A stretch of 64,000 bases of DNA from an uncultured Mycobacteriaceae bacterium (GTDB lineage: Bacteria; Actinomycetota; Actinomycetes; Mycobacteriales; Mycobacteriaceae), in assembly GCA_902826815.1 (NCBI GenBank), contig CADEGF010000030.1:17813-81812 (forward strand), written 5' to 3'. Under the pieces are notes generated by a model that was not told the origin of the DNA, did not search any database, and worked only from the letters and a program-made list of their open reading frames with translations. Below are positions 14,184 through 19,223 of the stretch, piece by piece. Each line of letters begins with the position of its first letter. The first letter of the stretch is position 1. The position numbers were made by a program, and so were the translations under genes.

Positions 14184-15074
14184 TCAGCCGCGGAAACCAG
14201 GCCCGCGGCGACGCAGGTAGCGCTCGAACTCGGCGGCCAGCGCGTCGCCGTCGATCTTGCCGAGCACATCGGTCATATCGACCTCGGCATCGCCACGCTC
14301 TTCGAGGGATGCCACGTACTCGGCGATCTCGTCGTCCTCCGACGTCATCTCGGTGACCGCTTCCTCCCACTCCTCGGCCTGGGTGGGTAGATCGGCCAGA
14401 GGTACCTCGATGTCGAGGACGTCTTCGACGCGACGCAGCAGGGCCACGGTGGCCTTCGGGTTGGGCGGTTGGCTGACGTAGTGCGGTACGGCCGCCCAGA
14501 ACGTCACCGCCGGAATGCCCGCCGCGACACACGCGTCCTGGAACACACCCGCGATGCCCGTCGGTCCCTCGTAACGCGTCTCCTCGAGCCCGAAGAACTT
14601 CGCCGAGTCAGGGGAGTAGGCCGCGCCCGACACCGGAACCGGCCGGGTATGGGGCGTATCGGCCAGCAGCGCGCCGAGGATGACGACGGTGTCGACGTTG
14701 AGTTTGTCCGCGATGGCCAGCAGCTCGGCGCAGAATGTGCGCCATCTCATATTCGGCTCGACCCCGTGCATCAGCACGATGTCACGATCGGAGCCGGGTG
14801 GACGGCAGTGGGAGATGTGCATCGAGGGCCAGACAAGTTCACGGGTGACACCGTCGATCTGGCGGATGACCGGCCGATTCACCTGGTAGTCGTAGTAGGC
14901 CTCGTCGTCGATCTCGACGATTGGGTCGGCTTCCCAGATGGCGTCGAGGTGCTCGAGCGCGTCGCTGGCCGCATCCCCTGCGTCGTTCCAGCCCTCGAAC
15001 GCGGCCACCACGATGGTGTTCGTCAGTTCAGGCAGGTCGGCGGGCTTGCGGCCGGTCGCATCCGACTGGGTCAC
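14184..15074 (-). CDS. PAC2 family protein (proteasome assembly chaperone-like fold)
   Basis: A 296-residue protein starting at GTG 15074 (VTQSDATGRKPADLPEL), close to the length of Rv2125, its positional counterpart. The PAC2 fold is marked by VVAAFEGWNDAGDAASDA, VLMHGVEPNMRWRTFCAEL and VVILGALLADTPHTRPVPV. The C-terminal 60 residues are strongly acidic (EEWEEAVTEMTSEDDEIAEY). Eukaryotic PAC2 helps assemble proteasomes. Whether the bacterial protein does so is not settled, but its presence on the same segment as prcBA is notable. The longer frame upstream overlaps the metH leader region and is not supported. Confidence 0.88.
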   Translation of the reverse strand: MTQSDATGRKPADLPELTNTIVVAAFEGWNDAGDAASDALEHLDAIWEADPIVEIDDEAYYDYQVNRPVIRQIDGVTRELVWPSMHISHCRPPGSDRDIVLMHGVEPNMRWRTFCAELLAIADKLNVDTVVILGALLADTPHTRPVPVSGAAYSPDSAKFFGLEETRYEGPTGIAGVFQDACVAAGIPAVTFWAAVPHYVSQPPNPKATVALLRRVEDVLDIEVPLADLPTQAEEWEEAVTEMTSEDDEIAEYVASLEERGDAEVDMTDVLGKIDGDALAAEFERYLRRRGPGFRG

Positions 15075-15131
15075 TACGCCAGCGTAAGGCCTGTTCGGGC
15101 TTGGCGAGCCTGATGGACACGAGCCCGATTT

Positions 15132-15146
15132 GGTAGACCGACTACC
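15132..15146. promoter_or_regulatory. Putative operator dyad overlapping a -10 element
   Basis: GGTAG-ACCGA-CTACC is a perfect 5-bp inverted repeat of the kind bound by TetR-type regulators. The right arm overlaps TACCCT (15143-15148), which fits the mycobacterial -10 pattern TANNNT and points at base 15156, where a GTG-started small ORF begins. Confidence 0.35.
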
Positions 15147-15155
15147 CTGTTTTAT

Positions 15156-15257
15156 GTGACATGCGCGAACGACCATCCGTACGACCCGACCCTCGACGAC
15201 GTCAACAACCTCGAGGGCGCGGTCGATACGAAATACGTTCGCTTGCAATCTGGTTAA
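15156..15257 (+). CDS. Possible leaderless small ORF upstream of metH
   Basis: A 33-codon frame from GTG 15156 to TAA 15255-15257, beginning VTCANDHPYDPTLDDV. Its third codon positions are mostly G or C in the first two thirds, as in real genes here. A TANNNT -10 ends 7 bases before the GTG, so transcription would start at or next to the start codon, giving a leaderless message, which is common in mycobacteria. I recognise no family. It could be a regulatory small ORF, a small protein, or the relic of a gene displaced when metH arrived. The 98 bases between it and the metH promoter show nothing else. Confidence 0.35.
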   Translation: MTCANDHPYDPTLDDVNNLEGAVDTKYVRLQSG

Positions 15258-15358
15258 CCTCTGGGACACGACATTGCGGCTGACACTGCCGATTAGGTTT
15301 ACGAGCGCTCGCTCGAGTGCGATGAACTGGGCGTCCAGACGCCGATCGGGTAACGACG

Positions 15359-15364
15359 TAGACT
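15359..15364 (+). promoter_or_regulatory. Candidate -10 element of metH
   Basis: TAGACT fits TANNNT. A transcript starting 6-8 bases downstream would begin at about 15371, exactly the first base of the riboswitch P1 helix. A weak -35 (CAGACG, sharing GAC with TTGACA) lies 17 bases upstream at 15336-15341. The coincidence with the aptamer boundary supports the call, but it is untested. Confidence 0.4.
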
Positions 15365-15370
15365 TGCCTG

Positions 15371-15440
15371 GTCGAGAGGCGTTGCAACGGTTCCGGGTCG
15401 CTACCGGTAGCCGCCACGCTCGGCGGAGTCAAGGACGCCT
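15371..15440 (+). ncRNA. SAH (S-adenosylhomocysteine) riboswitch aptamer
   Basis: The leader of metH folds as the SAH aptamer. P1: GUCGAG 15371-15376 with CUCGGC 15419-15424. Core: GCGUUGCAAC 15379-15388, against GCGCUGCAA in the Ralstonia aptamer as I recall it. P2: CGGUUCCGG 15388-15396 with CCGGUAGCCG 15404-15413, one bulged U and a 7-base loop. Then CCACGCUCGG matches the family's CCAGGCUCG. Pseudoknot: AGGCGU 15377-15382 with ACGCCU 15435-15440; relative to GAGCGC/GCGCUC both strands changed together and pairing is kept. SAH accumulates when methyl transfer outpaces recycling. This class normally turns on metH or ahcY. Confidence 0.82.
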
Positions 15441-15454
15441 TCCGTTACGGAAGG
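15438..15454 (+). promoter_or_regulatory. Anti-Shine-Dalgarno hairpin (expression platform of the SAH riboswitch)
   Basis: CCUUCCG-UUA-CGGAAGG is a perfect 7-bp hairpin. Its 3' arm contains the metH ribosome-binding site GGAAGGA (15449-15455), 6 bases before GTG 15462. Its 5' arm begins at 15438-15440, the last three bases of the pseudoknot strand. SAH-stabilised pseudoknot and ribosome-site hairpin therefore compete, giving a translational ON switch. Confidence 0.78.
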
Positions 15455-15461
15455 AACGCAC

Positions 15462-19223
<3,762 letters not shown>

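Follow-up and report, generated by a model that had tools for sequence, protein, structure and literature searches.

The locus examined here lies in a 64-kb stretch of DNA from an uncultured Mycobacteriaceae bacterium, called the window throughout. Its central gene is metH, which encodes a cobalamin-dependent methionine synthase, and the leader upstream of it had been proposed in a sequence-only reading to hold an S-adenosylhomocysteine (SAH) riboswitch at positions 15371-15440. Every aptamer part named in that reading was found where it had been placed, and the features of the locus, with the evidence for each where it was recorded, are as follows.

14184..15269, minus strand: divergent neighbouring open reading frame (ORF) with a weak match, below cut-offs, to proteasome assembly chaperone (PAC2-type) models; its start is uncertain
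15359..15364, plus strand: candidate -10 promoter element TAGACT (TAnnnT), from conservation in 41/41 distinct mycobacterial-type leaders
15371..15376, plus strand: 5' strand of P1, GUCGAG, from sequence and covariation
15377..15382, plus strand: 5' strand of the pseudoknot, AGGCGU, with 100% of cells paired and 5/6 pairs changing on both sides
15383..15387, plus strand: core UGCAA, of which 15383-15385 are near-invariant in both phyla
15388..15413, plus strand: P2 hairpin of 9 bp (strands 15388-15396 and 15404-15413), with one bulged U and a variable loop
15414..15418, plus strand: joining strand CCACG
15419..15424, plus strand: 3' strand of P1, CUCGGC, from sequence and covariation
Between P2 and the 3' strand of the pseudoknot: CCACGCUCGG, a further aptamer part named in the sequence-only reading
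15431..15434, plus strand: AAGG preceding the pseudoknot strand
15435..15440, plus strand: 3' strand of the pseudoknot, ACGCCU, from sequence and covariation
15438..15454, plus strand: hairpin hiding the Shine-Dalgarno sequence, CCUUCC-guuac-GGAAGG, whose first 3 nt are part of the pseudoknot
15450..15455, plus strand: Shine-Dalgarno sequence GAAGGA
15462..19223, plus strand: metH, 1253 amino acids, GTG start, from the ORF, NCBIfam metH equivalog models and Pfam domains

The aptamer stretch (15371-15440) ends 21 nt upstream of metH. The riboswitch element itself extends beyond it to 15454, as the Shine-Dalgarno hairpin at 15438-15454 was absent from the parts originally listed.

When 901 nt around the leader were compared with all of Rfam using cmscan, the SAH riboswitch family RF01057 matched 15368-15447 over its full model length with a score of 27.2 bits (E = 0.0077), below the family's gathering score of 37 bits, and no Rfam family reached its gathering score anywhere in the window. 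The site was the top RF01057 match of the 6.87-Mb genome among the candidates scored (E = 0.0137), with the runner-up at 20.9 bits. Weak RF01057 matches (E up to 10) occurred in 10 of 14 control genomes, none of them above the cut-off, and scores of this size therefore prove little alone; without its relatives, the window makes a riboswitch case that is suggestive only. The opposite strand gave a Bcj14 match of 19.4 bits, where the cut-off is 59, and this was taken as chance. The sequence-only reading had looked to a significant RF01057 match, and on this point the window by itself fell short, the class assignment holding only once relatives were added. The gathering score is a threshold set by the database and describes no biological property. 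None of 37 genomes of the genus reached it, and three of 20 actinobacterial loci tested (L009, L084 and L177), which share the same plan, passed it.

Relatives were collected with a covariance model, R1, built from the 22 sequences of alignment A4, comprising 18 actinobacterial sequences (the window among them) and four proteobacterial ahcY leaders. R1 includes P1 and P2 and omits the pseudoknot; A4 takes L108 without its last base and leaves L111 out. With R1, whose seed sequences thus include the window as well as its relatives, the window aptamer scored 71.8 bits, compared with 16.0 bits for the runner-up within the window. With 32 candidates scored per genome under strict filters, a sample of 148 genomes of the genus Mycobacterium yielded R1 matches (E ≤ 0.01) in 131, at 60-73 bits and once per genome except in G147. 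A protein search with 86 residues of the MetH N-terminus matched 130 of these 148 genomes, and all 130 window-type matches were preceded by the aptamer on the same strand, with a gap of 31-96 nt to the protein match. Two RNA matches remained unpaired with MetH: a strong one in G145, where the contig stops just inside metH, and a weak second one in G147 (32.8 bits), which is not upstream of metH and was taken as chance.

A set of 80 named metH loci, taken from a protein search, was examined by pattern as well. The aptamer was seen within ~700 nt upstream at 33 of them, namely all of the first 27 loci plus six more, and the pattern was absent from the other 47. The first 27 belong mostly to Mycobacterium, Mycolicibacterium and Mycolicibacter, with one Nocardioides and a few metagenome-assembled genomes under other names; most Nocardioides, all Blastococcus and all proteobacterial metH loci among the 80 lacked the pattern. 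Alignment A1 (43 leaders) consists of the window, 33 named leaders and nine others; it omits L012, L014, L015 and L022-L024 (minus strand), as well as four remoter loci, L009, L016, L019 and L021. The presence of the aptamer before metH across relatives settles what the sub-cut-off Rfam score leaves open.

The genomes without an aptamer point to the same partnership. Eighteen genomes (the 17 without an RNA match and G145) were searched with full-length MetH, and 12 of them contain a divergent MetH of 35-37% identity, three hold fragments of window-type MetH and three have no MetH. A pattern check of four of the loci without an R1 match found no aptamer. In the eight genomes examined (nine loci: L126-L129 and L172-L176), the divergent metH adjoins the PAC2-type gene that also flanks metH in the window; metH thus seems to have been replaced in situ, leader included, and the aptamer seems to travel with window-type metH.

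Covariation was assessed in 56 CM-aligned sequences, 55 of them distinct, from 27 actinobacterial and 29 proteobacterial aptamers; these remained after eight chance rows were dropped from 64. The proteobacterial set was drawn from 80 genomes (28 with a match above the Rfam cut-off) plus additional loci, and R1 found 29 of the 33 proteobacterial loci at E ≤ 1. In the structure given above (17 pairs plus 15417/15433), 98.1% of cells were paired, and both sides varied in 15 of 18 pairs. None of 500 shuffles scored as high on any of five measures, and sliding the partners by 1-3 columns left 28-39% of cells paired. P1 and P2 were paired in 98.2% and 95.2% of cells, respectively, across the 55 distinct sequences, with nine of 11 pairs changing on both sides, values that come from an alignment fitted to a model containing the P1 and P2 pairs. 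The pseudoknot is absent from that model, and there 100% of cells were paired and five of six pairs changed on both sides. The difference from the Ralstonia pseudoknot, which the sequence-only reading had called covariation rather than chance, is thus confirmed as such in 55 distinct sequences from two phyla. Within the 43 A1 leaders the pseudoknot is nearly invariant, so its covariation comes mainly from the cross-phylum comparison. For the 22 sequences of A4, the corresponding values were 98.9% of cells paired and eight of 17 pairs changed on both sides. P2 folds better than the mean of its inner shuffles in 43/43 leaders (mean z -2.3) while its sequence drifts. At 16 positions, the 27 actinobacterial and the 29 proteobacterial sequences agree on one near-invariant letter, and the positions matching G15, C16 and A29 of the solved aptamer are among these.

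The stability of the single leader adds nothing to this: the 94-nt leader, folded without the pseudoknot, is ordinary for its composition (z +0.40, with 129 of 200 shuffles folding at least as well), and the riboswitch case therefore rests on conservation and covariation. Such ordinary stability would also fit a leader that is simply a constitutive or protein-controlled Shine-Dalgarno hairpin with a relic of an aptamer in front of it, as the hairpin alone could account for low translation. We consider this very improbable, because compensatory changes accompany the conservation of the core, P1, P2 and pseudoknot both in the sampled genus and outside it, and P2 remains paired despite sequence drift. 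The full-length RF01057 match, the genus-wide link to metH and the covariation together uphold the original proposal of an SAH-class aptamer in a mycobacterial metH leader, and the fold is almost certainly real.

Two positions set the actinobacterial aptamers apart. Position 15417 is C in 27/27 actinobacterial and G in 29/29 proteobacterial aptamers, and 15433 is G in the same 27/27 and C in the same 29/29; an earlier, looser pattern pass gave C and G in 61/61 actinobacterial loci. Together with the first pseudoknot pair, these are the fixed differences between the lineages. We take 15384 and 15385 to be G15 and C16 of the solved Ralstonia aptamer, 15416 to be A29, 15417 to be position 30 and 15433 to be position 46, a register that agrees with P1, the pseudoknot, the conserved UGC and A29. 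In passages of PMC7057144, the adenine of SAH is described as lying between C16 and A29 with a hydrogen bond to G15, and the homocysteine tail as being contacted by C46; for SAM, the known aptamer is reported there to bind about 1000-fold more weakly. The positions for the adenine contacts are kept in the window, and the equivalent of the tail residue C46 is replaced by G. The Rfam consensus carries G and C at positions 30 and 46, so the swap helps explain the low RF01057 score. As the swap is reciprocal and complementary, 15417 and 15433 may pair, and one ancient double change would give the same pattern at these positions. Being below the Rfam cut-off and carrying two swapped pocket letters, the window copy is filed as an SAH riboswitch variant rather than as a plain Rfam member.

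The same swap was seen in a wider search. An exact pattern that allows both letters at 15417 matched 11 of 396 genomes (three of 236 genera). Every one of these 11 has C there, and the proteobacterial letter was not found among the actinobacterial matches; the reversed pattern, used as a control, matched once in 396, and the match in G435 may be chance. With R1, scoring more candidates, matches were found in 13 of 41 genomes (eight of 27 genera) in a sample of the order and in five of 40 genomes (four of 35 genera) in a sample of the class, both counts including the window's own genus. Phylum-wide, at least five of 296 genomes and at least two of 198 genera matched, a search with 16 candidates scored per genome that has little bearing on absence.

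The order sample contains 13 sites that lie outside the genus. Six of them precede metH and three precede ahcY (L009/L130, L140 and L141); the others precede a methyltransferase-domain gene (L123), two MOSC-domain genes (L135 and L137) and one FMN_bind_2 gene (L138). The class sample adds one metH, identified by reading (L177), and one ahcY (L178). In L135, L137, L138 and L123, the aptamers lie at about 1500-1600. The MOSC and FMN_bind_2 targets have no obvious link to SAH.

Two pocket-associated residues differ from those of all 29 proteobacterial aptamers, and the RNA could therefore bind with another affinity or specificity. Ligand preference has shifted in variants of other riboswitch classes, and the swapped pair (C at 15417, G at 15433) might likewise have turned an SAH-riboswitch fold towards SAM or another adenosyl compound. 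Consistent with such a shift, the swap is complete between the sampled lineages (27/27 against 29/29), residue 46 is reported in passages of PMC7057144 as a contact of the homocysteine tail, and MOSC or FMN_bind_2 genes follow three of the 13 sites found outside the genus. Another nine of the 13, however, lie upstream of metH or ahcY, as expected for SAH, the positions that match the adenine-contacting G15, C16 and A29 hardly vary, and a reciprocal change from G-C to C-G should keep complementarity and a similar minor-groove face. We therefore regard a shifted ligand as unlikely, and the aptamer very likely senses SAH, as judged from these sequence comparisons. We favour, with some reservation, the broader view that Actinobacteria hold a distinct SAH-riboswitch subclass, whose pocket would have been rewired by a reciprocal 30-46 swap at the homocysteine tail in every sampled member, with SAH binding kept via another contact or ligand specificity shifted; such a subclass would govern metH in most sampled Mycobacterium species, where it lies below the Rfam cut-off.

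The sequence-only reading had also pointed to a candidate -10 element that would start the RNA at P1, and conservation lends this support. TAnnnT begins 12 nt (25 leaders) or 13 nt (16 leaders) before P1 in 41/41 distinct mycobacterial-type leaders. A consensus scan found no sigma-70 two-hexamer match in 15250-15480, so the case for the -10 rests on conservation, and the 5' end of the transcript is probably at or near 15371. Upstream of the -10, the stretch 15329-15358 looks conserved in many mycobacterial metH leaders, often close to GGGCGTCCAGACGTCGATCGGGTGACGACG, and is possibly a -35 region or a regulator site.

Downstream of the aptamer, CGCCTTCC-loop-GGAAGG, followed 5-8 nt on by NTG, was found in 40 of the 43 A1 leaders. 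The last three bases of the pseudoknot double as the first three of this hairpin, and the two structures are therefore mutually exclusive in their complete forms. In a folding calculation, the mean probability that the Shine-Dalgarno core is unpaired was 0.03 for the free leader and 0.63 once the pseudoknot was imposed by denying its strands any other pairing; this probability rose in 43/43 leaders, a rise that is partly by construction. In 20/20 diverse actinobacterial leaders, a short hairpin of differing sequence was seen to have 3-6 nt in common with the pseudoknot strand, in a search that considered only arms starting near the pseudoknot strand and from which long loops were disallowed after the first result had been seen. 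Shuffled tails gave an equally good hairpin in 0-35 of 200 cases (6/200 for the window; the worst was L016, with 35).

These observations suggest a cis-acting SAH-class riboswitch controlling the translation of metH, transcribed from a promoter whose -10 would lie 6 nt before P1. In the absence of ligand, GGAAGG (15449-15454) would be paired to CCUUCC (15438-15443), which would mask the Shine-Dalgarno sequence and keep MetH synthesis low. Accumulating SAH would be bound by the core together with the pseudoknot AGGCGU/ACGCCU; the latter would capture the CCU heading the hairpin, the lower half of the hairpin would be lost, the Shine-Dalgarno sequence would be freed and MetH would rise. MetH would then consume homocysteine, so that hydrolysis of SAH could continue. 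Removal of homocysteine pulls SAH hydrolysis forward, and ON control of metH therefore makes biochemical sense. SAH riboswitches are also reported, in passages of PMC7057144, to upregulate ahcY. From the overlap of pseudoknot and hairpin, which can be read in the sequence itself, we infer the ON direction and the translational level, and the full mechanism of an SAH-responsive translational ON switch for metH appears likely, a grade that allows for the folding and hairpin analyses favouring the overlap partly by construction.

A further reading is an SAH-class switch that works in the OFF direction, or at transcription. One copy outside the genus, L009 from a genome of the same order, shows that the platform can be transcriptional: at L009:1501-1600, the aptamer precedes ahcY and ends in a terminator-like hairpin and T run that replace the Shine-Dalgarno hairpin. 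No terminator-like site was found in 15250-15480 of the window, and the repressing hairpin overlaps the pseudoknot in either layout, an arrangement that speaks for ON; we thus hold OFF or transcriptional control of the window's metH to be quite unlikely, and translational ON control remains the preferred reading.

The window aptamer shares with proteobacterial RF01057 aptamers the topology of P1, P2 and pseudoknot, the core UGC, A.GCUC, the AA before the pseudoknot and targets in the SAM cycle. It differs in having C/G rather than G/C at 15417/15433, in its pseudoknot AGGCGU/ACGCCU and in its sub-cut-off score; its expression platform is the Shine-Dalgarno hairpin sharing 3 nt with the pseudoknot. 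SAM-IV and other SAM classes share the ligand family and methionine-cycle genes, and their folds, like that of the SAM/SAH riboswitch (RF01727), differ from the SAH riboswitch; none of these classes matches the window at gathering score. Passages of PMC2864571 likewise place RF01727 with the SAM/SAH ligand family and methionine-cycle genes.

According to passages of Sun et al. 2013 (PMC3766115), SAH riboswitches are most abundant in beta- and gammaproteobacteria and were also identified in Mycobacteriaceae, so their presence here is not new. Given the same class and the same family, the Mycobacteriaceae elements of that report are very probably the same as those described here, and the passages of it covered here name neither the gene, the pocket difference nor the mechanism. 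The suggestion in the sequence-only reading that such an element is unusual in this host was overstated, in view of that report and of the element's occurrence in 131 of the 148 genus genomes; the unusual features are the swap in the pocket and how consistent it is, rather than the host. Passages of PMC4239095 give ahcY and metF as the core targets of SAH riboswitches, with metH a taxon-specific target in Comamonadaceae. Within the passages covered of the open-licence literature, there was no account of how the switch is built in mycobacteria, of the swap in its pocket or of its tie to metH across the genus.

The alternative methionine synthase is already linked to an RNA regulator. A cobalamin riboswitch, whose aptamer and ligand differ from those of the window element, controls and represses metE in M. 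smegmatis, as reported in passages of PMC8088520, a paper on methionine synthase regulation that does not use the term SAH. The genome to which the window belongs also has two cobalamin matches, in L179 and L180 (contigs C4 and C5): a cobalamin riboswitch of 72.8 bits before an ORF for a cobalamin-independent methionine synthase, and a weaker match (27.2 bits, below cut-off) before a membrane-protein-like ORF.

If the mechanism outlined above is true, both methionine synthases of many mycobacteria would be controlled by RNA, metE by cobalamin and metH by SAH. A genus-wide riboswitch can sit below a curated cut-off, partly through a coordinated change in its pocket, and the swap can serve as a natural experiment on recognition of the ligand tail by the SAH aptamer, within a 94-nt RNA. 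The joint loss of the aptamer and window-type metH in some species would make the evolution of the regulator traceable within one genus.
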